DNA of 64,000 nt, from NCBI GenBank assembly GCA_030527825.1, contig JAUNAC010000002.1, positions 532,444 through 596,443 on the forward strand. Reading direction: 5' to 3'. This DNA comes from Lautropia sp. (lineage in GTDB: Bacteria; Pseudomonadota; Gammaproteobacteria; Burkholderiales; Burkholderiaceae_E). A model generated the notes under the pieces. The model was given only the letters and a program-made list of their open reading frames with translations. It made no database searches and was not told the origin of the DNA. Each line of letters starts with the position of its first letter. Position 1 is the first letter of the stretch. Positions 1,625-58,536 of the stretch are shown here, piece after piece. The translations under genes were made by a program, and so were the position numbers.

Positions 1625-4600
1625 ATGAATCAACACGATATATCGCCTGGATTCATCATCATCCACGGCAACCATTCTGAAACGCTGCGTGATCTGCTTG
1701 GTGAATGGATGCGGGCTTATCCCCTGGCGCCATTGGAAAATGAAGTGATTCTGGTCCAAAGCAATGGTATTGCGCAGTGGCTGACGCTGTCGCTGGCATC
1801 GGATCCATCGGCTGGTGAGGGAGGCCAGGGTATCGCTGCCGCGCTGGATATGCAGTTGCCATCCCGTTTCATTTGGCAGGTCTATCGCCAGGTACTCGGG
1901 GAGGTACAGGTACCGTTGCGTTCCCCGTTTGGTAAAGACCTGTTGCTGTGGCGTTTGATGCGTTTGCTGCCAGACGTGATTGAACAACCTGTTTTCGCGC
2001 CACTGGCGCGTTTTTTGAAGGATGATCCGCTGCTCCGTCGCCGTCATCAGCTGGCTGAACGGGTGGCGGATCTGTACGATCAATATCAGGTGTATCGTGC
2101 CGACTGGCTGGAGGATTGGGCCAGTGGAAAGGATCAACTGCGCCTGCAACGGCAGGGAACGGTTTCCATGGCTACAGACCAGAGCTTCGAGAACGTTCGC
2201 TGGCAGCCGGTGTTGTGGCGTCTGTTGCTGGAAGATGCAGGAGAAGAGGGGTGGCGCAACCGTGCTCATATCCACGCACGTTTCATGGAAGCTTGCCGAG
2301 ATATGAATCGTCCCCGGCCTTCCAGTCTGGCCAGAAGGGTATTCGTCTTTGGTATATCTGCCATGCCTCGCCAGGCGCTGGACGTTCTGGCTGTTCTGGG
2401 GCGTTGGTCTCAAGTGCTGATATGCCTGCAGAATCCATGCCGGCATTATTGGGCTGACATCGTTCCTGAGCGTACCCTGCTGTCGGCGAGCAGTTTCCGC
2501 CACGCCCCCAAGGTTGTAGATGGCAAGGCCGTGCTGAAACGTTTGCCGGGTATCGACCATGGACATGCTCTACTGGCTGCCTGGGGGCGGCAAGGGCGTG
2601 ATCTCATCGCGATGCTGGCAGAGCATGATGATCTGGAACAGTCGGAAAGTCGTCTGGGTGACATCAGTCGCCGCGCGGATGTCTTTGTCGATTTGCCGGC
2701 AGACACCCTGTTGTCCCAGATCCAGCAGGATATTCTGGATCTGGATCCCTTGACGGCCACAAGACAACGATGGCCAGCGGTGGATGCCCAGCAGGACATA
2801 TCCATCCGTTTTCATGTCTGCCACAGTCCGCAGCGTGAGGTCGAAGTACTGCATGATCAGTTGTTGACGGCCTTTGCAGCAGACGCTTCTCTCCAGCCCG
2901 GAAACGTGCTGGTGATGGTGCCGGATATTCAGCGATTTGCACCACATATTGAAGCGGTATTTGGTCTTTATTCTGCGGATGACCCGCATTTCATCCCATT
3001 TTCCATTGCGGATCGCTCATCCCGCGCGCAAGAGCCGTTGTTGCGTGCGGTGGAATTTCTGCTGTCTTTGCCGATGGCAAGGATTACGGCCAGTGACGTG
3101 ATGGACTTGCTGGATGTTTCTGCCGTCCAGCGCCGATTCGATATCGACATCACCGAACTGCCCACGTTGAAGCAATGGATCGAACGCAGTGGTATTCGCT
3201 GGGGATTGAACAAAGGGCAGCGCGCCAGTTTGGGTCTGGGAGAGTCTGTTGATGCCAACACCTGGCATTTTGGCATGCAGCGGATGTTGCTCGGTTATGC
3301 CGTTGGCGGTGGCGGCAGCTGGGCAGGCATTGAGCCCCTGGATGATGTGAGTGGACTGGATGCGCCATTGGTCGGAAAAATGATGGCATTGATTGATGCC
3401 CTGACTCATGCCTGGACTGTTCTTTCCAGACAGGCGACCCCTGCCGAGTGGGTGGTCAGTCTGCGGGCCATGCTATCCAGTTTCATGTTGCCTGCCAATG
3501 ATCACGAGGCATGGCTATTGATGCAGCTGGAAGACGCACTTCATCAATGGCTGCAGGATTGTGAAGAAACCTGCATGCGGGCGCCCCTGCCGCTTTCGGT
3601 GGTCAGCGAGCACTGGTTGTCATCGCTGGATGATGACGGGCTGACGAAGCGTTTTTTCGCGGGTGCGGTCACCTTTGCGACACTGATGCCCATGCGTGCG
3701 ATTCCATTCCGTCATGTGTGTTTGCTGGGGATGAATGACAAGGAATTCCCGCGCGAGAAGTCGGCAGCCGACTTTGATCTGATGTCGGCCGACTATCGGC
3801 CGGGCGATCGCTCCCGGCGGGAGGATGATCATTATTTGTTTTTGGAGGCATTACTGTCGGCACGGGAGAGGCTGTACATCAGTTGGGAGGGACGCAGTGC
3901 ACTGGACAACGCCTATAAGCCACCCTCGGTGCTGGTTGCGCAGTTGCGCGATCATTTGCGCGCTGGCTGGCGACTTTCAGGTGCAGAACGGAGCGGACGG
4001 GATGCGTTGCTGGAGCGCTTGACCACCGTGCACCGACTGCAACCATTTTCACGGGCATATTATGAACAGCCGGCGGGGCAGCCAGATTTGCTGCTGCCGC
4101 CCGGTGACGGTTTGTTCAGTCATGTGCAGGCATGGCGTCGATCCTTGCAGGCGCTGGATTCGTCATGTGCAGAACCTGCCATGACTGAGCATAATGATCT
4201 GGCTGATATGCCAGCGAAAGGCATGACAGTGCAGTCGGAGGTCACTGCCAGCAACCTTTGCCTGTCGCCCATGCAGCCAGTATCGCTGCTTGATCTGGAT
4301 ACGCTTGGCAGTTTTATCGCCCATCCTGTGAGGAAATTTTTCCATTGCCAATTGAACATCAATCTTGGCACTGGAGACGAGGAGGCTGATGACAACGAGC
4401 CTTTTTCGGTTGGCGGTTTACAGAACTGGAAGATTCGCGACGAGCTCCTGGCATGCCAGAAACATGCGCTTCAGCAAGGCCGGTCTACAGGCGAGGCGCT
4501 GGAGGAAAGCCTGGCGGCTCTATTGCGTACAGGGTTGATGCCTGTCGGTGGGTTTGGTCAGTTGGCAGCCCAGAACCTGGGAGAGCCAGCGAGGAGCGTA

Positions 4601-5311
4601 TTTGACGCCTATGTCAGGGACCTGGAAAACGCTCCCAGTGCTTTGCCTGACCAGATCGTCAGTCTGGACGAGGTGGTATTTAAGGATCAGCCCCTGATCC
4701 TGTTGCCGGCGGTCACTGGGCGCATCGACCAGCTGCGCCGAACTGCCGAGGGAGGGCGTCGTCGGGTGCTGCTGACCGCGAGCAACTTGATCAATAGACG
4801 GCCAAATAATCAGGGTAAATATCATTATGGAAAACTCTTGCCGCATTGGGTCATTCATGTGGCTGCGCATTTGACAGGGGAGTCGTTGACAACGGTAGTG
4901 CACAGCTTCAATGGCGTGGTGACGATTTCTCCAATAGCCGATGACATGGCAGGCGATATATGGCGCAATCTGCTATTGGCCTGGTATGAGGGCATGAGAC
5001 GGCCTTTGCCCTTTGCGGTCCAGTCTGCCGCTGCATGGCATTTTGAACGAGCCCGGCTTGATGGGCAGGCAGAGGCCGATGCTTTTGCCCCGGCTGAATG
5101 GCACATCGTTGAATCAGGTGATACGCGTGGGGTCTATGAAGGCGACGGCTTTTGGGAAAAAGGGGAGCGGAGTGATGATCCGCATTTACAGCGCGCATTT
5201 GCCACCTTTCAGTCGCTGTGGTCAGAGGGGGAGTTCGATCTCTGGGTGAGCCGGCTGATGTCTCCCTTGATTCACCATGTAAAGCAGTCGAGTGCTGGCA
5301 GCGGTGAATGA
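1625..5311 (+). CDS. recC: RecBCD subunit RecC (exodeoxyribonuclease V gamma)
   Basis: RecC is the Chi-recognition subunit of the RecBCD helicase-nuclease that resects double-strand DNA ends for RecA loading. The 1228-residue product is slightly longer than the 1122-residue Escherichia coli protein. Its N-terminus (HGNHSETLRDLL, then VQSNGIAQWL) is the typical RecC start, corresponding to an inactivated SF1 helicase fold. A PMRAIPFRHVCLLGMND segment near residue 680 is characteristic. The C-terminal third corresponds to the nuclease-like domain that contacts RecB. The stop overlaps the recB start in an ATGA. The order recC-recB-recD lacks the ptrA insertion found in enterics. Confidence 0.95.
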   Translation: MNQHDISPGFIIIHGNHSETLRDLLGEWMRAYPLAPLENEVILVQSNGIAQWLTLSLASDPSAGEGGQGIAAALDMQLPSRFIWQVYRQVLGEVQVPLRSPFGKDLLLWRLMRLLPDVIEQPVFAPLARFLKDDPLLRRRHQLAERVADLYDQYQVYRADWLEDWASGKDQLRLQRQGTVSMATDQSFENVRWQPVLWRLLLEDAGEEGWRNRAHIHARFMEACRDMNRPRPSSLARRVFVFGISAMPRQALDVLAVLGRWSQVLICLQNPCRHYWADIVPERTLLSASSFRHAPKVVDGKAVLKRLPGIDHGHALLAAWGRQGRDLIAMLAEHDDLEQSESRLGDISRRADVFVDLPADTLLSQIQQDILDLDPLTATRQRWPAVDAQQDISIRFHVCHSPQREVEVLHDQLLTAFAADASLQPGNVLVMVPDIQRFAPHIEAVFGLYSADDPHFIPFSIADRSSRAQEPLLRAVEFLLSLPMARITASDVMDLLDVSAVQRRFDIDITELPTLKQWIERSGIRWGLNKGQRASLGLGESVDANTWHFGMQRMLLGYAVGGGGSWAGIEPLDDVSGLDAPLVGKMMALIDALTHAWTVLSRQATPAEWVVSLRAMLSSFMLPANDHEAWLLMQLEDALHQWLQDCEETCMRAPLPLSVVSEHWLSSLDDDGLTKRFFAGAVTFATLMPMRAIPFRHVCLLGMNDKEFPREKSAADFDLMSADYRPGDRSRREDDHYLFLEALLSARERLYISWEGRSALDNAYKPPSVLVAQLRDHLRAGWRLSGAERSGRDALLERLTTVHRLQPFSRAYYEQPAGQPDLLLPPGDGLFSHVQAWRRSLQALDSSCAEPAMTEHNDLADMPAKGMTVQSEVTASNLCLSPMQPVSLLDLDTLGSFIAHPVRKFFHCQLNINLGTGDEEADDNEPFSVGGLQNWKIRDELLACQKHALQQGRSTGEALEESLAALLRTGLMPVGGFGQLAAQNLGEPARSVFDAYVRDLENAPSALPDQIVSLDEVVFKDQPLILLPAVTGRIDQLRRTAEGGRRRVLLTASNLINRRPNNQGKYHYGKLLPHWVIHVAAHLTGESLTTVVHSFNGVVTISPIADDMAGDIWRNLLLAWYEGMRRPLPFAVQSAAAWHFERARLDGQAEADAFAPAEWHIVESGDTRGVYEGDGFWEKGERSDDPHLQRAFATFQSLWSEGEFDLWVSRLMSPLIHHVKQSSAGSGE

Positions 5312-8300
5312 CAGCAGGCAACTATAGGCGATGTAAAGGATCAGTGGGGGTCAAGTTGCGAATGGGTGATGGTGTCGATGTTTCCATGATTTCCCGGATG
5401 TCTGAACCGGAGGCGGTGGAGCCACTTTCTTTTCCACTTTGGGGAAGTCGTCTGATTGAGGCCAGTGCAGGCACCGGCAAAACCTATACGATTGCTGCCT
5501 TATATCTGCGTTTGGTACTGGGCCATCATACGGAACGCGGTCAGGGAGGGGATGCCGCCAGAGGTCCACTGGATCCGCCGGAAATCCTTGTGGTGACCTT
5601 TACCGAGGCTGCTACGCTGGAGTTACGCGATCGTATCCGGGAACGTCTGGCGGAGGCAGCGGATTTTTTTCGTTCAGGTGCACTCGAAAATCTGGGGCAT
5701 GCTGCCGATGACGCTTGCCACGCGACAGAGCCGGACAGGTATTTGGATGAGTTGCGCGCCAGTTATGCGCCCGAGAGCTGGCCGGATTGTGCGGTCCGTC
5801 TGCAATTGGCCGCTGAATGGATGGATGAGGCAGCGGTATCGACCATCCATGGCTGGTGCAGCAAAATGCTTCGTGAACATGCTTTTGACAGTGGTTCACT
5901 GTTCTCATTGAAAATGGTGGAGGATGATGAAGGGTTGCTGATTGAATCCATCCGGGATTATTGGCGAAGCCATGTCCAGCAGTTCAATCGGATGGAGGCA
6001 ATGCTGTTCAGTAGCTACTGGGGAAATTTTTCGAATGTTTGCGAAACATTGAAAAATGATCTGCAAAAGCTTGTGGCCGTTGACTTTCCAGAGCCCTGTT
6101 CACCGCACGATGCGATGCGATCTGCTCTGGACCGCCTGGCGCAGCAGAAAGCAAAATGGCAGGGAAACAGACTGGGTCAGCTCAGGCAGGTATTGCTCAC
6201 GGCCCGGGAAAAAAAGAGTGTAAATGGCAACAGATTGCGTCAAAAAACGCTGCTGGATAGATTTGATGAGCTGGAAAGGTGGGCAAAGGATGAGGATTCC
6301 TGCATTCCTATTGATAACAAAGGAACTGCATGGTCATTTGGGGATGGGAATAGCAGTCCATTCCGATGGATGCGCAATTGGTGTACACCAGAAGGGGCGC
6401 GCCGCAACTGGAAAACCTATCCGGAAGATGGCATTCGCTTATTTGAGGAAATGGACGAATTGCTGCAGGCATTTGAGTTTGTAAATGAACTGAAGTATCC
6501 CGTCATGCTGCATGCCGCCCATTGGGTCAGTAAATGGCATCGGCAGGAAAGGGAGCAGCGGGGAGAGCTCGGGTTTGATGATATGCTGGAAAAGCTTGAC
6601 AGTGCGCTGCAATCCCCGTCGGGAAATGTGCTTGCCGCACGTATCAGGCGACAGTTTCCGGTTGCGATGATAGACGAGTTTCAGGATACAGATCCGCTGC
6701 AATACAGAATATTCAACCGTATATACAATATTTCTGACAATGATCCTGATACTGCGTTGATCCTGATCGGCGATCCGAAGCAGGCAATTTATGCGTTTCG
6801 GAATGCCGATATTTATACTTATCTTCGCGCGCGGGAAGCGACTGCTGGCCGACATTATACGCTCAACAGAAACTTCCGCTCGTCGTCAGGAATGGTTGAG
6901 GCAGTTAACCGTCTGTTTGATCGCGCTGAAAAGCGCGCGCATGCACGTGGTGCATTCAGATTCCGGAAAGCAGCCCCCGACAGTGGATCGGCAGCCGCTT
7001 CCAATGTGTTGCCATTTTATCCCGTCATTGCCCAGGGCCGCGAAGACATATGGCAGGACCCGCGCCATCAATCCGGGCAGACACCTGCTCTGACGATCTG
7101 GCGACCTGCTCCGGATGATCCTGGCAATCTGGATAAAAGCAGCTACCAAAATCGCTTTGCCCGCGCAACTGCCTGTGAGATCGCTTTTCTTCTTGGCGCC
7201 GAGATAGAGGGGAGCATGGGGGCAGGTGGTGTGGCACGCATGGGTGATCGTGGTCTGCGGCCTGCAGATATCGCAGTGCTGGTCAACAATGGACCACAGG
7301 CTGCGCTGGTGCGACAGGCACTGTCCCGGCACGGCGTGGCAAGCATTTATCTGTCAGACCGGGCATCGGTATATGCCAGTCCAGTGGTAGCTGATGTGGA
7401 ACGATTTTTGAGGGCCTGTGCTGAACCCGCTCATGGTCCCACGCTTCGGGCAGCGTTGGGAAGTGATCTTGCCGGGCTATCAATGAATGACTTGAGCCGC
7501 CTTCAACACGATGAAGAGTTTTGGGAGGCTTGGCTGAGACGCTTTCAGAACTATCACCGAATCTGGCGCGGACAGGGTGTATTGCCTGCAATTCGTACGC
7601 TGCTTCAGGACTTTGGCATGACGGAGCGGCTGTTGAGAGAGGGCCGGGAGCGCGAGCTGACCGACTTGCTTCATGTGTCGGAGTTATTGCAGACCGCCTC
7701 AAAGGTTCTGGATGGTGAGCATGCGTTGATCCGTTTTTTAGTGGAGCAGCGTCATGATCCATCCGGTGGCTCGGATGAACGGCAACAGCGCCTGGAAAGT
7801 GATGAAGCACGGGTTCGGATCGTTACCGTTCACAAGTCAAAGGGCCTGGAATATCCGTTGGTATTCATTCCCTTTTTCTGCTCCGTCAAGACTGTCGATC
7901 CTGGATCTCTGCTGTTCTCATGGCACGATGAGGATGGAAACCTCCATCATACGTTGAATCGTGAATACAATCCGGGCGGATCTGACGAACAGAGTCCGGG
8001 ACGGGATGGTGAAGATTTCCAGAGCAAGGCTGATGAAGATCGACTGGCCGAGGATTTGCGGAAATTGTATGTTGCGCTGACCCGAGCGCGTTATGCAACA
8101 TGGGTCGGCATTGATACAGTGAACCAGTTTGAATCCAGCGCTGCCGCGTATTTATTGGGATATGACGCTTCACATTGCATGTTGGATGACGAGGAAAAGC
8201 CTTCAAAAAAAACAAAATCGGATTCGGCATCCAAAAAGCAGGAAAAGGATCGGAAAAAACAGCTGCAGCGCCAGGTACTGGATGATTGCCTCAAGCAGCT

Positions 8301-9549
8301 CATACTTGACGCACCTGCTGGGCAGATTGCGGTGACAGTGCCTCCCGAATGTGACGATCGTGGGGGCTGTCGTTCGAGGGCCACATGTTCCTCCCGGGGC
8401 GTTGTATGGAAAACACCGCCGGATCTGCCTGCCCGGCGCTGGCAAAAGTGGTGGATTGCCAGTTATTCGGCATTAGAAACAGCCTCCACCAATATCAGCT
8501 GGGCCAGTGGTCCCGTTATATCGCCGGCAGCTGCTGACGGAGATGCGATGGTGTCATCTGATCCCGTATGGTCAGCAGAGTCTGCGCGCGCAGATGACTG
8601 GCACGAATATATGCCTCTGGCCATTGCAGATGTCGATGATGCAGAGGATGATCCGGGCGGGTATACGCTGCCGGTGACTGCTGCTCCACAGCCTGATGGG
8701 CACAGTTTTCATGACTTTCCGCGTGGCCCACGTCCAGGAACTTTTTTGCATGGCATTTTGGAGTGGATAGGTGTACAGGGTTTTGCCACACTGGCACAGG
8801 CGCCCGAATTGTTGCGTGCGGAAATTGCACGGCGCCTGCTTCATCGCCCGGACTGGCGGGTCTGGCAGGGTGTGCTGAACAGTTCGTTGTCATATCTGCT
8901 CACAGTTCCGTTGCGGATCCGGGACGAGATAGATGACAGTTCATCTCCCGATCCGGTAGGGGGCAGGGGACGACGAAGTGCCGACATTGTGCTGTCCGAT
9001 CTTCAGCAGTATCAGACGGAAATGAGTTTCATGTTGTCTGTCGAGCAGTTGGACGTAAAGCTGCTTGATGTTTGGGTTCACAAAAACATATATCCGGGGA
9101 AGCCCAGGCCGATGCTGCTGGCTGATCAGCTGAATGGAATGCTAAAGGGGTTTATTGACCTTGTTTTTGAATGGGAGGGGTGTTACTACGTATTGGATTA
9201 CAAATCGAATTGGCTCGGAAGTAGCGTAGAGAGCTATTCTTATGAACGCATGCTGGATGCGGTTCTGGGACACCGCTACGATATTCAATACCTGTTCTAT
9301 CTGCTGGCCTTGCATCGCCTGCTCAGGTCGCGTATCCCTGACTATGATTATGATCGTCATGTGGGGGGGGCAGTTTATATTTTCCTCCGTGGCGTTGTGG
9401 CGGATAAATCAGGGGTTTTTTACGCACGACCGCCCAGGAAGGTGATTGAGGCGCTTGATGCCGCTTTTCAGGGTGATGTGTCAGTATTGATGACATCGGG
9501 TGTGTCCGCTGAGCAACGTCAGCACGATCTGTCTGGGAATGTGGAATGA
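5308..9549 (+). CDS. recB: RecBCD subunit RecB (exodeoxyribonuclease V beta)
   Basis: RecB is the 3'-to-5' SF1 helicase and only nuclease of RecBCD. Helicase motifs occur in order: Walker A EASAGTGKT at residues 51-59, the Walker B box MIDEFQDTDPLQ, GDPKQAIYAFR, and VHKSKGLEYPLVF. The C-terminal nuclease domain has GFIDLVFEW followed by YVLDYKSNWLG, matching the metal-binding Asp-Asp-Lys of E. coli RecB. At 1413 residues it is about 230 longer than E. coli RecB. Much of the excess lies in a charged Lys/Ser-rich linker near residues 955-990 and the segment after it. The ATG at 5308 overlaps the recC stop; an internal ATG at 5398 would remove 30 poorly conserved residues. Confidence 0.95.
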   Translation: MTAGNYRRCKGSVGVKLRMGDGVDVSMISRMSEPEAVEPLSFPLWGSRLIEASAGTGKTYTIAALYLRLVLGHHTERGQGGDAARGPLDPPEILVVTFTEAATLELRDRIRERLAEAADFFRSGALENLGHAADDACHATEPDRYLDELRASYAPESWPDCAVRLQLAAEWMDEAAVSTIHGWCSKMLREHAFDSGSLFSLKMVEDDEGLLIESIRDYWRSHVQQFNRMEAMLFSSYWGNFSNVCETLKNDLQKLVAVDFPEPCSPHDAMRSALDRLAQQKAKWQGNRLGQLRQVLLTAREKKSVNGNRLRQKTLLDRFDELERWAKDEDSCIPIDNKGTAWSFGDGNSSPFRWMRNWCTPEGARRNWKTYPEDGIRLFEEMDELLQAFEFVNELKYPVMLHAAHWVSKWHRQEREQRGELGFDDMLEKLDSALQSPSGNVLAARIRRQFPVAMIDEFQDTDPLQYRIFNRIYNISDNDPDTALILIGDPKQAIYAFRNADIYTYLRAREATAGRHYTLNRNFRSSSGMVEAVNRLFDRAEKRAHARGAFRFRKAAPDSGSAAASNVLPFYPVIAQGREDIWQDPRHQSGQTPALTIWRPAPDDPGNLDKSSYQNRFARATACEIAFLLGAEIEGSMGAGGVARMGDRGLRPADIAVLVNNGPQAALVRQALSRHGVASIYLSDRASVYASPVVADVERFLRACAEPAHGPTLRAALGSDLAGLSMNDLSRLQHDEEFWEAWLRRFQNYHRIWRGQGVLPAIRTLLQDFGMTERLLREGRERELTDLLHVSELLQTASKVLDGEHALIRFLVEQRHDPSGGSDERQQRLESDEARVRIVTVHKSKGLEYPLVFIPFFCSVKTVDPGSLLFSWHDEDGNLHHTLNREYNPGGSDEQSPGRDGEDFQSKADEDRLAEDLRKLYVALTRARYATWVGIDTVNQFESSAAAYLLGYDASHCMLDDEEKPSKKTKSDSASKKQEKDRKKQLQRQVLDDCLKQLILDAPAGQIAVTVPPECDDRGGCRSRATCSSRGVVWKTPPDLPARRWQKWWIASYSALETASTNISWASGPVISPAAADGDAMVSSDPVWSAESARADDWHEYMPLAIADVDDAEDDPGGYTLPVTAAPQPDGHSFHDFPRGPRPGTFLHGILEWIGVQGFATLAQAPELLRAEIARRLLHRPDWRVWQGVLNSSLSYLLTVPLRIRDEIDDSSSPDPVGGRGRRSADIVLSDLQQYQTEMSFMLSVEQLDVKLLDVWVHKNIYPGKPRPMLLADQLNGMLKGFIDLVFEWEGCYYVLDYKSNWLGSSVESYSYERMLDAVLGHRYDIQYLFYLLALHRLLRSRIPDYDYDRHVGGAVYIFLRGVVADKSGVFYARPPRKVIEALDAAFQGDVSVLMTSGVSAEQRQHDLSGNVE

Positions 9550-11936
9550 AACCGCCTGGCAGTGGGAGTCGGAAGCGTACTCATGGATCGAGCCGTCACT
9601 TGGCATCCGGCGAACAGCTGGATTTATTTGACGCTGCAGAGTCACTGCATAAACCGGATGGAGGCTCGTCTGAAACCGTGGTGAGGGAGGGGCATCGTGA
9701 CCTGGTGTCCGGGGCCGCCAGCCCTCTTTCCGAGCCGCAGTTTGAAATACTGCCCTGGGAAAATACGGAAGCCATTTTGTCATGGCTGGCAGTTTTGGTT
9801 GAACAGGGCTGGCTCAGAAGAATTGATCTGGAGTTTGCACGTTTTCTGGTTGCACAGATCCGCCCGTCAGAGAGCGGTCATCATCATGGCGTTCTGGCAG
9901 CCCGTGATGTGTCGGCAGCAGCACCCGGCTCATTGGGTCTAGTATTGCTGGGTGCGGCACTGTGCAGCTGGCAGCTGGGGCGAGGTCACGTCTGTCTTGA
10001 CATGGCATCTGTGGTTGCTACGCCCAGTCTGGCGTTGTCCTGGCCATCTGAGGTGTGCCACCCTTTGCGTGGCATGACCTTGCCGAAATGGATAGCCGCC
10101 GGCGCGGCTTGGCCCGTCCTGGTTGGCTGTGCGCAGGACACCGTGACTGTTGCAAATGATGGATCTGTCGTCACGCCCCTGGTTCAGGCGGGCTCAAGAC
10201 TATATATGCGGCGATATTGGGCCTACGAGCAACAGCTGCAGGCCGCTATTTTGGAGCGCCTTCATCCGGATGAGCGACTGGATGATGCGGAGGTGCAGCA
10301 TGTTATGGCTGCTGCACTGGATGCATTGTTCAGCCATGCCCAGGATCAGGAAGCGGCGCGTGGCGGCACGGTGGATTGGCAACAGATTGCCTGCGCTTTG
10401 GTGGCACGCCGTCGTTTTGGTCTGATCACGGGCGGCCCTGGTACGGGCAAGACGACGACGGTGGTGAAGCTTCTAGCGCTTTTGCAGGTTCTTTCTCATC
10501 AGCTGCAGGGGCGCTTTTTGCAGATTGGTTTGGCAGCCCCGACTGGTAAGGCCGCCGCCCGTCTTGGTAGTTCCATCAACGGTGCTATCAATCAGTTGCC
10601 ATTTTCTGCTTTGCCGCAAGGGGAGGCGCTTCGACTGGCCATTCCATCCACTGTCCAGACATTGCATCGTCTGCTAGGGGCCCGTCAGGGAGGCAGGCAT
10701 TTCCGGTATGGGCCACGGCTGACATTGCCACTGGATGTTCTGGTCATTGATGAAGCGTCCATGGTCGATCTGGAAATGATGGCCATGGTGGTCCAGGCAC
10801 TGTCCCATGAGACCCGTCTGATTTTGCTTGGTGACAAGGATCAGTTGGCCTCGGTTGAAGCAGGAGCAATTCTGGGCGAGTTGTGCCTGAGAGCGCAGGC
10901 AGGCCATTATTGGCCGGAGACTGCAAGCTGGATTGAGGGGGTCACAAAGCAGCGAATCGAGCCCGAATTGCTTGATGCGGAAGGCGGACGCCTGTTGGAT
11001 CAGGGTATCGCCATGCTACGTTACAGTTACCGCTTTGGCCAGGACAGTGGCATTGCGAAGCTGGCAGCCTATGTAAATCAGGGTGATGGTGCTTCGGTCA
11101 CGCAGTTATGGCAGCAGACGGCAGACGGGGCGAATGTGGATATCCATCGGGTCATCGCGTCAGATAGCCAACGCAGTGCACTGGAGCAGCTGGTGGTTGA
11201 TGGTTGGGGCGAGTCTGTCTTGAGCGGACGGGGGGCAGTGCATGATTCAATCGCAGCAGGGTTGCCGGCAAGGTGCAGCGCGCTGGGATATGCTCATTAT
11301 CTCTCGCTGATGCATAAAACAGATCCGGGTACGGATGCCACACCAGGTGATCTGGATGCATGGGCGGCACACGTGTTGGCAGCGCATAGCAGCTTTCAGT
11401 TATTGGCAGCATTGCGGCAGGGGTTCTGGGGGGTTGATCAACTGAACCGTCAAATTGCCCAGTGGTTGCAAAGGCGGGGACTGGTGAATGCCAGTGATGG
11501 CTGGTATGCAGGCCGCCCGGTGATGGTGACACGTAATGACTATGAGCTGGGGCTGATGAACGGGGACGTTGGCATGACTTTGCTGCTGCCAGGGGGGCGT
11601 TTAAAGGTTGCTTTTGCCGGAGAGTCGGGAGAGCGGGCAATTCGCTGGGTCTTGCCTAGCCGCCTGCAGGCAGTGGAAACAGTATTTGCCATGACGGTTC
11701 ACAAGGCACAGGGATCGGAGTTTGAACATGCGGCGCTGGTATTGCCGGCGGACAGTTCCCCGGTTCTGACCCGGGAGCTGATCTACACCGCTATCACCCG
11801 GGCCCGTCGCTTTTTTAGTTTATGTGGGCCTGCACAGGTGGACAGGCTGTTTGAGGAGAGTGTCCGGCGCAGGGTGCTACGGGCTAGTGGGCTGATGCAG
11901 GGCTGCTTGGCGGCTGAGCTAGAATCAGAACACTGA
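9546..11936 (+). CDS. recD: RecBCD subunit RecD (exodeoxyribonuclease V alpha)
   Basis: RecD is the 5'-to-3' SF1B helicase motor of RecBCD. The Walker A motif GGPGTGKTTT lies near residues 295-305. Then follow VIDEASMVDLEMM, GDKDQLASVEAGA and the C-terminal TVHKAQGSEFEHAALVLP and YTAITRARR. The protein is 796 residues against 608 in E. coli. Part of the difference is an N-terminal extension containing QLDLF at residues 24-28, a match to the beta-sliding-clamp-binding pentapeptide. ATG 9546 overlaps the recB stop in an ATGA, which supports translation of the extension. Last gene of the recCBD operon. Confidence 0.95.
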   Translation: MKPPGSGSRKRTHGSSRHLASGEQLDLFDAAESLHKPDGGSSETVVREGHRDLVSGAASPLSEPQFEILPWENTEAILSWLAVLVEQGWLRRIDLEFARFLVAQIRPSESGHHHGVLAARDVSAAAPGSLGLVLLGAALCSWQLGRGHVCLDMASVVATPSLALSWPSEVCHPLRGMTLPKWIAAGAAWPVLVGCAQDTVTVANDGSVVTPLVQAGSRLYMRRYWAYEQQLQAAILERLHPDERLDDAEVQHVMAAALDALFSHAQDQEAARGGTVDWQQIACALVARRRFGLITGGPGTGKTTTVVKLLALLQVLSHQLQGRFLQIGLAAPTGKAAARLGSSINGAINQLPFSALPQGEALRLAIPSTVQTLHRLLGARQGGRHFRYGPRLTLPLDVLVIDEASMVDLEMMAMVVQALSHETRLILLGDKDQLASVEAGAILGELCLRAQAGHYWPETASWIEGVTKQRIEPELLDAEGGRLLDQGIAMLRYSYRFGQDSGIAKLAAYVNQGDGASVTQLWQQTADGANVDIHRVIASDSQRSALEQLVVDGWGESVLSGRGAVHDSIAAGLPARCSALGYAHYLSLMHKTDPGTDATPGDLDAWAAHVLAAHSSFQLLAALRQGFWGVDQLNRQIAQWLQRRGLVNASDGWYAGRPVMVTRNDYELGLMNGDVGMTLLLPGGRLKVAFAGESGERAIRWVLPSRLQAVETVFAMTVHKAQGSEFEHAALVLPADSSPVLTRELIYTAITRARRFFSLCGPAQVDRLFEESVRRRVLRASGLMQGCLAAELESEH

Positions 11937-53420: not shown

Positions 53421-54137
53421 ATGGGATGGCGTGCAGCAATGGTAACGGCTAATCTGCGGCGGCGACTGCTGCTGTCCCGCGGGGCTGGCCTGCTGGCCGG
53501 GGTTGCCGCGTTCTCGTGGCGCATTGCTGGCGCCTCCGATCAACAGGGGACGGACACAAGCCCTGATGCCGTGCCTGGCAGCCCGGTTCTGCTGGTTCTG
53601 GGTGACAGTCTGTCGGCCGAATATGGCCTGGCCCGGGGTCAGGGCTGGGTGGCGCTCTTGCAGCAGCGACTGGCTGGGGATGCCTCGCTGCGGCGCTGGC
53701 ACGTTGTCAATGCAAGCATCAGCGGCGAAACCTCGGCGGGCGGCCTGGCCCGGCTGCCGCAGTTGCTGCAGCAGTACCGGCCGGACGTGGTGCTCATCGA
53801 GTTGGGAGGCAATGATGCCTTGCAGGGGTTATCGCTGAAAGCGCTTGCCACCAACCTGCAGGAGATGGCGGACAAGGCGAAGGCAGCCGGCAGCCGGGTC
53901 ATTCTGGTGGGCATGCAGGTACCGCCCAACTACGGACCGGCCTACGCACAGAAGTTCGAGCGCCTTTTTGCCAAGGTGGCTGGCCAGGCCGATGCCCCCC
54001 TGGTGCCCTTCCTGATGGACGGATTCGGCGATGATCCCACCTGGTTTCAGGCAGATGGCATCCATCCGCTGGCACGCGCCCATCCCCGCATGCTTGACAA
54101 TGTCTGGCCCGTGCTCCGGAAGATGCTGCGGCCATAG
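53421..54137 (+). CDS. Secreted SGNH esterase/arylesterase (TesA-like)
   Basis: A 238-residue SGNH hydrolase homologous to TesA (thioesterase I/lysophospholipase L1). Block I LVLGDSLSAEYGL carries the nucleophilic Ser, block II has the Gly in ISGETSAGG, block III GGNDALQG the Asn, and block V DGIHPLARAHP the Asp and His. The N-terminus (LRRRLLLSRGAGLLAGVAAF) is an export signal with a twin-Arg-like start. ATG 53421 or 53439 both keep it. It is divergent from the YbbA-like ATPase and convergent with the tRNA-Leu gene. Confidence 0.88.
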   Translation: MGWRAAMVTANLRRRLLLSRGAGLLAGVAAFSWRIAGASDQQGTDTSPDAVPGSPVLLVLGDSLSAEYGLARGQGWVALLQQRLAGDASLRRWHVVNASISGETSAGGLARLPQLLQQYRPDVVLIELGGNDALQGLSLKALATNLQEMADKAKAAGSRVILVGMQVPPNYGPAYAQKFERLFAKVAGQADAPLVPFLMDGFGDDPTWFQADGIHPLARAHPRMLDNVWPVLRKMLRP

Positions 54138-54162
54138 CGCTGCCATGACTGGCAGGTCGGTG

Positions 54163-54468
54163 TGGTGCCCGAGGCCGGAATCGAACCGGCACGACCGAAG
54201 TCGAGGGATTTTCCTGCCACTATGGCTTTCGCCACCTGTCCGATGGACAGTTTGGGGTCTGGAGCACGCCTTCACCATACCCCGCAGGGGCGCAGGTGCC
54301 CGCCGTCTGCTCTCTACACCTTCCCGGAAAGTCTCCGGGCTTGGCTCGGCGTTGGCTCGGAGATCATCCAGGGCTTTCGCCGAATTTGACGGGTTCCATT
54401 CCGCAGGTTTCCCCACGGACGCTCAAAATTTTCAAGTCCCTTGTGTCTACCAGTTTCACCACTCGGGC
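54163..54468 (-). tRNA. tRNA-Leu(UAA) gene interrupted by a group I intron
   Basis: Exon 1 (54434-54468) gives the acceptor 5' strand GCCCGAG, a D arm and the anticodon stem AGGGA followed by CUU. Exon 2 (54163-54212) starts AAAA, then TCCCT, an extra arm CGAC-TTCG-GTCG, the T arm GCCGG-TTCGATT-CCGGC, CTCGGGC and encoded ACCA. Joined they make an 85-nt class II tRNA with every stem paired. The seven-base loop CUUAAAA has anticodon UAA, read as leucine. Without splicing the anticodon loop is broken, so maturation requires removal of 221 nt. The gene is convergent with the TesA-like gene and divergent from pabB. Confidence 0.93.
54213..54433 (-). ncRNA. Group I (IC3-like) self-splicing intron in tRNA-Leu
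   Basis: The 221-nt insert begins GAAAAUUUUGAG after a U and ends in G, the group I boundary rule. The internal guide GAG (54422-54424) can pair with exon CUU (54434-54436), giving the U-G at the splice site. Core motifs follow in order: GTCAAATTCGGCGAAAGCCC (P4-P5 area), GCCGAGCCAAGCC (P6 area), GGTGTAGAGAG, and a P7 pairing of GAGCA (54308-54312) with TGCTC (54262-54266). A P8-like CACC/GGTG pairing and a GTGGC-GAAA-GCCAT hairpin (54222-54235) complete it. No homing-endonuclease frame is present. Boundaries could shift by one base. Confidence 0.88.
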
Positions 54469-54583
54469 GACACATCCCGCATTACACCACACTATGGGCA
54501 GGTCAGCGAAATGTTTGTTTCTACAATCACCCTTCCCCTGTCGCACTGCCCTCCCCTGGCGACAGTCTCCGGCAACAAATACG

Positions 54584-56401
54584 ATGGCCGCACTGGCCGA
54601 CGATTGGCTCCGCACCCCCACTTGTTTTGAATACTCGTTGTCTGTGACGTACTCCGCATACATTGATTTTGCCGACCCGGATGGTGTGGCTCCCCGTTTG
54701 CGTCATGCCTTTGGCGCAGCACGTTCACACCTGATTGCCTGGCGTCATCAGGATGTTCGGGCAATACTGGACACTGTTCAGGAGCAGGCTGAGTCCGGGC
54801 GCTGGTGCCTGGGCTATGTTCGCTATGAAGCGGCGCCGGCGTTTGACCCGGCATTTCTCACACAGGATGCCGACGGGCCACTCGTCTGGTTTGCTGTCTA
54901 TGATGAGGCGCATCCGTGGCCGGCGGCCGTGGCGGAGGCTCCCTCATCGTCACCCTGGCAGATGATCTGGGATGAAGGACTGTCCCGCGCGGGCTTTGAC
55001 CGGGCCTGTGAGCGGGTATCGCGGGCTATTGCTGCGGGAGATCTGTATCAGATCAATTTCACGGCCCCACTCAGGGGGCGCTGGCGAGGTCTGGCAGCAC
55101 CTGAGGCACTCTTTGCTGCGCTGCAGCGTGCCCAGCCAGGGGGTTATACGCTCTATCTCGATACCGGGCCGGAGAAAATCCTCTCGGTATCACCAGAACT
55201 CTTTTTTGACTGGCATGCTCCCAGGCTTCTCACTCGTCCCATGAAGGGAACAGCCGCCCGGGGTGCTACGCTGGCTGAGGATGAAGCCCACCGAGTCGCG
55301 CTGGCGTCGTCCCCCAAGGAACGGGCGGAAAATCTCATGATCGTGGATCTGCTGCGCAACGATTTATCGCGTCTTGCCGAACCATTTTCGGTGCAGGTGC
55401 CGCATTTGTTCCAGACGCAGCGGCTGGCTACGGTCTGGCAGATGACGTCCGACATCCAGGCACGTACGCGTCAAGGATGTACGCTATACGATGTTTTTTC
55501 CGCGCTCTTCCCTTGCGGATCGGTCACAGGCGCGCCAAAGGTCAGTGCCATGCGCATGATCCGTGCACTGGAAGCTCATCCCAGAGGCATTTATTGTGGG
55601 GCATTGGGTGTGGTGCAGCCCGGTGGGCGGGCTACCTTCAACGTACCAATACGGACAGTGGTCCTGGGGGATCGACAGGCATGTTGCGGCATCGGCAGTG
55701 GCTTGGTGGCGGATTCCGTCCCTGATGCCGAATGGAATGAATGGCGCAACAAGCGGACATTTCTGGAACGCGCCTGTCAGCCCTTCGATCTGTTGGAAAC
55801 ATTTGGGCTGTATGATGGGCAGTCCCCTTTGCTGCCGAATCATCTGCGCAGATTGGGTGCCGCCGCCGAGCATTTCGCCTATCCTTTTGATCTCCCAAAA
55901 ATCAGGTCATGTCTTGCCCGGCTGTTTGAGCAGCATCCCTGGGGTCAATGGCGGATACGTCTGAGTCTGAACGCGTACGGTCAGCCTCATGCCAGTGCCC
56001 TGCCCCTGCAGACCGAACAATCCGTCGGCCCTGTAGCGCTGAAGCTGGCTGATGAGGCTTTTGCCGCGGCTGCCAGTGAGTTTGTTCGTTTCAAAACCAC
56101 CCGGCGTGAACATTACGCTTCCTTTGCTCCGGCTGCAGGCGTGTTTGACACACTGCTTTGGAATGCTGCTGGCGAAGTGACGGAGGGGACCCGGTGCAAT
56201 GTAGCCTTCAGGCGCCACGGTCAGTGGTGGACGCCACCGTTGCGATGCGGCCTGCTGCCAGGCATCGGGCGTGAGCACTGGCTGCAAAATGGCCGCATCA
56301 GGGAGGCTGTTCTACACGTCAAGGATCTTTCGGATGTTGAAGATTTTGCCGTGTTCAACAGCCTGCGGGGTTGGCTGCCAGCAAGGCTGTTGAGCCACTG
56401 A
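54584..56401 (+). CDS. pabB: Aminodeoxychorismate synthase I fused to an ADC-lyase-like domain
   Basis: A 605-residue fusion. Residues about 20-370 are the chorismate-utilising PabB domain: GDLYQINFTAPL, SVSPELFFDW, RPMKGTAARG, DLLRNDLSRL, PCGSVTGAPK and GIYCGALGVV. The C-terminal 230 residues resemble PabC/branched-chain-aminotransferase class IV (LETFGLYDG, then GVFDTLLWNAAGEVTEGTRCNVAF). It would make p-aminobenzoate precursor from chorismate with a PabA glutaminase encoded elsewhere. Start 54584 is the first ATG past the tRNA; start codons nearer the conserved VTYSAYIDF are possible. Family phrases MKGT and the lyase tail are clear. Confidence 0.9.
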   Translation: MAALADDWLRTPTCFEYSLSVTYSAYIDFADPDGVAPRLRHAFGAARSHLIAWRHQDVRAILDTVQEQAESGRWCLGYVRYEAAPAFDPAFLTQDADGPLVWFAVYDEAHPWPAAVAEAPSSSPWQMIWDEGLSRAGFDRACERVSRAIAAGDLYQINFTAPLRGRWRGLAAPEALFAALQRAQPGGYTLYLDTGPEKILSVSPELFFDWHAPRLLTRPMKGTAARGATLAEDEAHRVALASSPKERAENLMIVDLLRNDLSRLAEPFSVQVPHLFQTQRLATVWQMTSDIQARTRQGCTLYDVFSALFPCGSVTGAPKVSAMRMIRALEAHPRGIYCGALGVVQPGGRATFNVPIRTVVLGDRQACCGIGSGLVADSVPDAEWNEWRNKRTFLERACQPFDLLETFGLYDGQSPLLPNHLRRLGAAAEHFAYPFDLPKIRSCLARLFEQHPWGQWRIRLSLNAYGQPHASALPLQTEQSVGPVALKLADEAFAAAASEFVRFKTTRREHYASFAPAAGVFDTLLWNAAGEVTEGTRCNVAFRRHGQWWTPPLRCGLLPGIGREHWLQNGRIREAVLHVKDLSDVEDFAVFNSLRGWLPARLLSH

Positions 56402-56423: not shown

Positions 56424-58536
56424 TCAGTACAGGTAAGTTGCCGTCAATCCAATTGTTCTGCCCGTTGCCACTTGAGCCAGATTACCGGTTGTTCCATAAG
56501 AGAAAGCATAAGTACGGTAATCCTTGTCAGTCAGGTTCTGGGCGTAGAGCATCAATTCCAGGTTGGTGGTCGGACTCCAGGACAGTCCCGCATCTACCAC
56601 CGTATAGGCATTCTGGCGCAGGGTGTTGGCACTGTCGAAGTAATGTGCTCCGGTACGACGCACTGAGAGTTGTGGTCGCATGACCGTATTCGCCACGCGC
56701 AGATTCCCTTTGGCAGCCAGGGTCAGGCCATGGCGAGGCGCCATGGGCACATCATTGTTCGTACATCCGGTGCAGGCGCGGGAATTCTCGAAGCGGCGGA
56801 ATGTCGCTTCATTTACGAAGCCGCCGGCACTGAGCGTCCACTGCCGGCTGACATCCCACTCGGTATTGAACTCCATGCCTATGGAACGGCTGTTCCCTAT
56901 GTTTCTCAGCGTCTGGTTGCCCACATCTCCGTCGCCATAGAGCTGTACATCCTTGTTGTCCACCCGGTAGAGGGCAACGCTGGCATGCAAATCACGGCCT
57001 GAGTAGCGCACACCTGTCTCGTAGCTGATTGATCGTTCGCGGCCATAGCCCTTGCTCTCGTCCACACTGCTAGGTGCCAGGTTGTAGCCCAAAGGCTTGT
57101 ATCCCTGCGCCACGTTGATATAGCCACGCCATTGTTGCGTGAACTGATACCCTGCGGCACCGTGCCCCAGCCAGGTGTTTTGGCGCAATGCCGCCTGACC
57201 CTGGAAGCCATTGCCCAGCTGTTCACCATTGAATCGGGTTCTGGCGTCGTCCCTGGTGAAGCGCAGTCCGGTGGTGATATCCGCCCTGGCGCTCAGATGC
57301 CAGGTTACATCCCCATAAGCCGCCAGGGACTCGATACGGTTGGTCGATGTGGAGTCAATGACACGATAAAGACTGGGTACCACCATGTCGAATTGATAGC
57401 CCCGTGACATATCCACGGCCTGGCGGTACAGGCCGAACACGGCATCCCAGCTTTGTGAGGCGGCACCACCAGCCTGCCCGGGCCGGGTTGACAGACGCAC
57501 TTCCTGGGTATTTTGCTTCCAGTGCTCGGAGAACTGAGGGAAATAAACGTCGATCGGCCAGCGGCGCGCGGTATGGGCGTGCTGGCTGCCGGCAATCACA
57601 TTCAGGCGCCATGGGCCGAAGTCGTATTGTCCATTGGCAGCGAAATTGTTGGCACAGCGCTTCTGATAGTAATTCCGGTAGCTCGCTGGCAGGTTGGGTG
57701 ACACATAAGCCCTGTGGGACTTATAGTCATCAAACAGCGTATAGACTTCCTGATCGCCCGTTGCGCAATCACGCCCTCCACTCAGTCCCACTTCCCACGG
57801 GCTACCGTCCGGTGCCAGACGCACCTTCATGTTGCCAGCCCTGGAACGCACGCCACCCAGCGTGTCACTGCCGATGACATCGCTACGGATATCGCCATTG
57901 ACATCATTGCCTGATAACGAAACCGAGCCATACAGCAGATCCTTGATCAGTGGGCCGGAACCCTCGGCCTGCACTTGATAGCCCTTGCGGCTTGATATGC
58001 CGGCACGGGTCTCGAACTGCGCTATGTTGTTTGGCTTGCGGAAAACGATGTTGAGTACACCACCCTGGGCGCTCTTGCCATACAGTGTACCCTGCGGACC
58101 TTTGAGGAGTTCCACTTGTTCCAACCCCGAGCAGGGACTGAGCTGCAAAGGTCGATAGTTGCGGTACACCGTCTACATAGACTGTCAATGCGGGGTTGTA
58201 GAAGTCCTGAGCAGATGTCACGCCGCGCAGTGTGATGATGGGAAACAGAAATGTCGCGCTATGAGACATGTAAAGATCTGGAAAGACCCGATCCAGATCC
58301 AGGCTTGAATTGACCTGCGCATCATCCAGGGTCAATCGGTGGGCCACATTGGCTGCGCCATTGATCTGTTCCAGGGTTTCATCACGTTTGCTGGCGGAGA
58401 CCACCACCGGGGCAAGTGACTAAATATTCAGTCTCGTATCTGGTGCAACATCTTGTGTGCGTGCAGTTGCCACGCCGGACAGAGAATGGAGGGAAATCAG
58501 CGTCAGGCTGAGCAGACGCAGTTTGGAAGGCGGCAT
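56424..58536 (-). pseudogene. fyuA: FyuA-like yersiniabactin TonB-dependent receptor, disrupted
   Basis: The coding sequence starts at ATG 58536 after a CAGGAG site and encodes a signal peptide. It meets an in-frame TAG at 58420-58422 just before VVVSASKRDE. It continues in frame to about 58128 (TLRGVTSAQDFYNPALTVYVDGVPQL), where one extra base around 58121-58129 shifts it into VELLKGPQGTLYGKSAQGG and the rest of a 22-strand barrel ending TATYLY. The protein reads very like FyuA of Yersinia, the ferric-yersiniabactin/pesticin receptor. As sequenced it cannot give a full-length protein. The start lies 3 bp after ybtQ on the same strand. Confidence 0.88.

Follow-up and report, generated by a model that had tools for sequence, protein, structure and literature searches.

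The interrupted tRNA-Leu(UAA) gene

The window, the whole 64,000-nucleotide stretch of Lautropia sp. DNA that was analysed, carries on its minus strand a tRNA-Leu(UAA) gene interrupted in the anticodon loop (Table 1). An earlier note, made from the letters of the DNA, had described exons of 35 and 50 nt separated by a 221-nt insert, and this layout proved exact to the base. When run with its intron search, ARAGORN reports tRNA-Leu(taa) with an intron of 221 nt at position 36. The joined exons are identical to an uninterrupted 85-nt tRNA-Leu(UAA) gene in the congener G020 (locus L042); the ARAGORN call and this empty site bear out an insertion between U34 and A35. The interrupted gene was missed by a default ARAGORN run over the window. 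The stretch 54000-54700 yielded neither a sigma-70-type promoter nor a terminator.

Two further observations concern other genes of the window. Genes resembling recC, recB and recD lie in a row on the plus strand at 1625-11936 (Pfam), the recB-like gene being identified from its UvrD-type domains and the gene order. A TonB-dependent receptor frame (56424-58169, minus) overlaps an upstream frame (57904-58407, minus) that has no Pfam match and is seemingly its front part, so that a frame change or a sequencing error may have split the receptor gene.

Table 1. Features of the interrupted tRNA genes in the window genome (G000). Positions are those of the window unless a contig is given; pairing refers to 50 tRNA-Leu(UAA) intron relatives.
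Feature	Position	Strand	Details	Support
tRNA-Leu(UAA), whole gene	54468-54163	minus	306 nt; interrupted in anticodon loop	
5' exon	54434..54468	minus	35 nt; bases 1-35, ends in U34 (...GACUU)	identical to bases 1-35 of L042 uninterrupted gene
Group I intron	54213..54433	minus	221 nt; last base G (G54213)	RF00028, model R2, ARAGORN intron call
3' exon	54163..54212	minus	50 nt; starts at A35, includes CCA	identical to bases 36-85 of L042 uninterrupted gene
P1	54422..54436	minus	exon CUU (54436-54434) with guide GAG (54424-54422); U-G at splice site	paired in 50/50
P10 (candidate)	54428-54425	minus	UUUU able to pair with exon-2 AAAA	
P3	54299..54393	minus	CCCGUC (54393-54388) with GGCGGG (54304-54299)	99.7% of cells paired
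P7	54262..54312	minus	GAGCA (54312-54308) with UGCUC (54266-54262)	100% of cells paired
P9b hairpin	54223..54234	minus	UGGC-GAAA-GCCA, GNRA loop	100% of cells paired
Second interrupted tRNA, anticodon CAU	G000:C2:1151299-1151660 (L097:397-758)		285 nt between U33 and C34	

Identification as a group I intron

The earlier note had taken the insert for a group I intron, an identity that is supported by the Rfam model RF00028, by a second model (R2) and by P7, which is paired in all 50 relatives. The Rfam covariance search that the note had proposed as a check did give a match, with 32.6 bits and E 4.3e-6 in a 1.7-kb stretch and E 1.7e-6 genome-wide, but the score lies under the gathering score of 50, which is a curator's threshold and no defining trait of group I introns. 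Across six loci, RF00028 scores 32.6 bits for the window, 36.8 for a plasmid copy (L003) and 20.4 for a second intron of the window genome (L097), and lists no match in L098, L041 or L196. As none of the six reaches 50 bits, RF00028 appears insensitive to this intron lineage.

Model R2 was built from ten introns in tRNA-Leu(UAA) genes of a different class, presumably Alphaproteobacteria, with the window left out; its structure comes from RNAalifold and covers the group I core only in part. The ten introns had themselves been found by model R1, which was built from tRNA-Leu(UAA) introns including that of the window. Over the 64-kb window R2 gives a single match, at 54440-54207, with 164.2 bits and E 5e-51 (E-values from R1 and R2 are rough). 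Chance resemblance to a group I intron is ruled out by this match. A homing endonuclease gene, as in mobile group I introns, is rejected by intron size and open frames, the longest stop-free stretch within the 221 nt spanning 73 codons.

Core structure and covariation

The core from P1 to P9 was drawn by hand, with P7 as a pseudoknot, and pairs were counted on 50 tRNA-Leu(UAA) introns of 204-258 nt. These represent 50 of the 52 distinct tRNA-Leu(UAA) places then classified; the expanded introns of L041 and L169 were omitted, as were duplicate copies from a single place and loci added afterwards. Overall, 94.2% of helix cells are paired, against 77.8% when shuffled and at most 43.9% when slid, and double changes occur in 41 of 62 pairs, no measure being equalled in any of 500 shuffles; these counts lean towards the drawn structure because the alignment was fitted to R1, which contains the window intron.

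In this R1-fitted alignment, the pseudoknotted P3-P7 core with P4, P6 and P8 that characterizes group I introns is present. P3 encloses P4, P5, P6 and the 5' strand of P7, with which it forms the pseudoknot, and P4 (99.0% of cells), P6 (100%, two pairs) and the base of P8 (100%) are paired almost throughout. The P7 helix claimed earlier, the guanosine-site helix, is borne out in every relative; three of its five pairs show double changes, with C-G/G-C and C-G/U-A exchanges in 24 of the 50. Double changes also affect four of six pairs in P3 and all four in P9b. The proposed pairing of a GAG guide with exon CUU likewise holds, P1 being formed in all 50 relatives, each of which has U-G at the 5' splice site. 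The same relatives all have U at position -1 and G as the final intron base, confirming that the insert follows U and ends in G. By a simple pattern count, P10 could form at least two contiguous A-U pairs in 41 of 50.

Small tRNA introns of subgroup IC3 have a core without P5abc and a GNRA-looped P9 hairpin, and the window intron shows both a short P5 lacking P5abc and a GNRA loop on its P9 hairpin. The absence of P5(a-d) from IC3 introns is stated in a published account (PMC11835236).

Outer helices are weaker, with 63.0-79.5% of cells paired in P2, 85.3% in the P8 tip and 69.0% in the P9a tip. The minimum-energy fold of the single intron sequence is 1.9 s.d. better than shuffles and lacks the full group I core, so single-sequence folding was dropped in favour of the comparative counts. 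In the P9 of the window intron there is a C-U mismatch at a pair that is A-U in 41 of 50 relatives. This mismatch would fit an intron that splices in the cell only with help from a host protein, such as a chaperone or a synthetase-type cofactor, but P3, P4, P7 and the base of P8 are nearly fully paired among relatives. The small intron type of Azoarcus pre-tRNA-Ile is self-splicing, which also counts against a need for help. Crystal structures exist, moreover, for small Azoarcus pre-tRNA-Ile group I intron-exon complexes (PMC3984707). We regard obligatory protein help as improbable.

Probable dependence of the tRNA on splicing

The note's suggestion that this is the only copy of the tRNA stands. 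In the window genome (2.80 Mb, six contigs, 99.39% complete), neither blastn nor ARAGORN found a second UAA leucine tRNA. The whole gene matches only itself and, in part, tRNA-Leu(CAA) by blastn. All 40 uninterrupted tRNA genes found in the genome were identified by ARAGORN, and they include one leucine tRNA each for CAA, UAG, CAG and GAG. UUA codons are rare yet used, at 64 of 18,879 codons in 40 long uncurated open reading frames.

These data bear on whether the gene is dead, its intron decayed and unable to splice and its UUA codons read in some other way. The RF00028 score under the Rfam cut-off and the P9 mismatch could be taken as signs of decay. However, the exons are intact and identical to the uninterrupted gene of a congener, the core matches a model of distant relatives, UUA codons are present and no other UAA leucine tRNA was found to read them. 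A dead gene is thus very unlikely.

Overall, we put at about 94% the probability that the window holds an ORF-less, small tRNA-type (IC3-like) group I intron that interrupts the sole tRNA-Leu(UAA) gene found, with U34 and A35 on either side, and that this intron is spliced out. In the precursor tRNA, exon CUU would pair with intron GAG to form P1, the cut falling at its U-G pair. A guanosine docked in P7 would attack after U34, the freed exon would attack after the final G of the intron, and the exons would be joined into the 85-nt tRNA. We infer both these steps and that little or no protein help is needed. A tRNA for which no back-up copy was found would then hang on a putative ribozyme.

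Introns within Lautropia

The locus can be followed through the genus. A GDSL-lipase gene adjoining tRNA-Leu(UAA) is kept at the same locus in G014, G015 and G018-G021; G016 has no match to the tRNA gene, and in G017 the locus is cut at a contig end. In G015, G018, G019 and G021, as in G020, tRNA-Leu(UAA) is uninterrupted. In G014 (Lautropia dentalis) the same position of tRNA-Leu(UAA) carries an intron of 455 nt (L041:1059-1599), which owes its greater length to insertions where P5, P6a and P8 end. Among 74 genomes of the family, the whole gene finds matches in four, namely the window genome and G063, G064 and G073 of another genus (79-81%), and G014 is matched in pieces. A tree of nine GDSL-lipase proteins (two further loci gave no match) has a support of 0.49 where one gain of the Leu intron would be told from several losses. 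Congeners that have or lack an intron at this locus offer a natural comparison through which its cost, gain and loss could be tested.

The same comparison addresses the possibility that the interrupted gene is foreign to this genome, brought in by a chimeric assembly or bin. Six of the nine records that have a common 28-base core are metagenome bins, which leaves room for such an error. Against it, the gene sits on a contig of 898,704 bases, the adjoining gene is conserved in congeners, and a related intron occupies the same place in L. dentalis KCOM 2505, a strain assembly. The chance of a chimera is negligible.

R1 finds introns in four of nine genomes of the genus: in tRNA-Leu(UAA) in G000 and G014 and in tRNA-Ile(CAU) in G000, G015 and G020. 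The window genome thus has a second group I intron (G000:C2:1151403-1151623, 116.1 bits with R1), which the earlier note had not picked up and the genome-wide Rfam search did not list. Its host, which has a CAU anticodon and is printed as Met by ARAGORN, is tRNA-Ile(CAU) as read from the tRNA body; two uninterrupted Met(cat) genes occur elsewhere in the genome. A third, partial R1 match (G000:C6:98617-98672, E 0.007) has no tRNA around it and is attributed to chance.

Survey of Burkholderiales and Pseudomonadota

With stricter filters, under which weak matches are lost, R1 matched 63 of 399 Burkholderiales genomes and 43 of 398 Pseudomonadota genomes. The Burkholderiales introns occupy eight or more anticodon-loop sites. 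The 74 match rows reduce to 71 places, as two rows are one intron (G014) and the weak matches in G135 and G008 were not fetched. These places comprise Leu(UAA) (25), Ile(CAU) at 33/34 (18) and at 36/37 (10), Arg(CCU) (6), Leu(CAA) (3), Ser(UGA) (3), Thr(UGU) (2) and Asn(GUU) (2); of the remaining two, one is cut at a contig end and one is a relic without a tRNA. The latter is a strong match (L105, G248:C30:55403-55630) that is seemingly truncated, its 3' half running into other sequence. In the Pseudomonadota survey, where the weak G705, G753 and G812 were not fetched, 37 new loci fall in Leu(UAA) (18), Arg(CCU) (12), Ile(CAU) at 33/34 (3), Leu(CAA) (2) and Arg(UCU) (2).

Assignment to tRNAs followed the best ARAGORN joins. 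Ties and artefact joins were settled by the exon pattern (for example in L001, L074, L075, L089, L090, L149, L152-L154, L159-L162, L168, L169 and L182), as were the tRNA-Leu(CAA) loci and many tRNA-Arg(CCU) loci. ARAGORN prints CAU tRNAs as Met, and their identity as tRNA-Ile(CAU) was read from the tRNA bodies.

The earlier note placed the proteobacterial examples known to it mainly in tRNA-Ile or tRNA-Arg, but tRNA-Leu(UAA) is not an uncommon site there: it accounts for 25 of 71 Burkholderiales places and tRNA-Ile(CAU) for 28, counts that favour tRNA-Leu(UAA) because R1 was built from introns of that tRNA. To judge by this survey, introns of this type would seem common in Burkholderiales (about one genome in six) and easy to overlook, as none of the six loci searched with RF00028 reached its cut-off and a default tRNA finder passed over the window gene.

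Kinship and a putative splice-site shift

A midpoint-rooted tree of the introns was built from 100 of 117 loci and 194 columns; support is weak at many of its deeper nodes, and metagenome bins are among its members. For the most part, introns from the same tRNA and site cluster together whatever their genome, and the two introns of the window genome lie far apart. Leu(UAA) and Arg(CCU) introns are each split over more than one clade, and the place of the window intron inside its clade is unsure (support 0.51). Two introns of Luteimonas, a gammaproteobacterial genus, are nested within the Burkholderiales Leu(UAA) group (0.85 at the enclosing node, lower support within); this nesting suggests that introns have been transferred from one group to another.

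The five Leu(CAA) introns are united in one clade (0.87), itself inside the Leu(UAA) group (0.80). At each of their loci (L079, L083, L099, L148, L170), exon 2 starts with AAAAUC and has no C before it, so that only a cut after C34 would give a proper Leu(CAA) anticodon. At these loci C34 would face the G of GAG, and the 5' splice site would have a C-G pair in place of U-G; the GAG of L083 was located by eye, P1 being misplaced there by the model. A U at -1 is the usual requirement at group I intron boundaries. One report describes fifteen tmRNA introns in which the base at -1 is a C that pairs with A (PMC11915505).

A wider view can be offered tentatively, and we would not bet on it at even odds: in proteobacterial anticodon loops, families of ORF-less, site-bound introns may come and go within a genus, cross orders or classes and sometimes jump between tRNAs, the window's clade having moved from Leu(UAA) to Leu(CAA), where it would cut after a G-paired C34. 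If this is true, jumps made with no endonuclease would implicate reverse splicing or recombination over short tracts.

Plasmid copies

In the plasmid pCTX-M3 there is a complete tRNA-Leu(UAA) gene split by an intron related to that of the window (L003:4995-5293). Close to the split gene, in the three plasmid regions viewed, are an AAA-family ATPase gene and one of the aac(3)-II type. Matches covering at least 80% of the window gene occur in 1254 of 72,556 plasmid records. The plasmid copy itself matches 635 of 5426 complete E. coli genomes, in 624 of them over 80% of its length. No annotated feature lies under the 32 matches listed in the plasmid and E. coli searches; among 40 matches listed in another search, one is under an annotated hypothetical protein.

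In the intron tree the plasmid copy clusters with introns from a different class, presumably Alphaproteobacteria (0.94 with L150). Full-length copies with 86-87% identity to it are found in 6 of 76 genomes of one such order (L201-L206), and any match at E 1e-20 in 11 of the 76, hinting that this presumed alphaproteobacterial order may be its source. The flanks of L150 and of the plasmid copy have nothing in common beyond the tRNA gene.

Comparison with known systems

Literature that mentions Lautropia together with introns includes, by title and start of abstract, none about such an intron. A gammaproteobacterial tRNA-Leu(UAA) intron was reportedly described in 2002. Putative group I introns in tRNA-Leu(UAA), the same tRNA as in the window, and in tRNA-Arg(UCU) are in print for the gammaproteobacteria Beggiatoa and Thiomargarita, another bacterial group, their type and structure being given as not determined (PMC4853749). 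The window intron is consequently a new case of a known kind of intron, not a new kind.

Cyanobacterial and plastid tRNA-Leu(UAA) introns sit at the 34/35 site. That cyanobacteria and plastids have introns in the same tRNA as the window is in print (PMC4033280). Introns of tRNA-Ile2 are reported in Acidovorax and Burkholderia (PMC8450103). The tRNA-Ile(CAU) intron of Azoarcus and its relatives are, like the window's, small tRNA group I introns, but that type interrupts another tRNA, and those found here in tRNA-Ile fall in clades separate from that of the window intron. The tRNA-Arg(CCU) intron of Agrobacterium is likewise a small tRNA intron, whereas the tRNA-Arg introns found here lie outside the window's clade.
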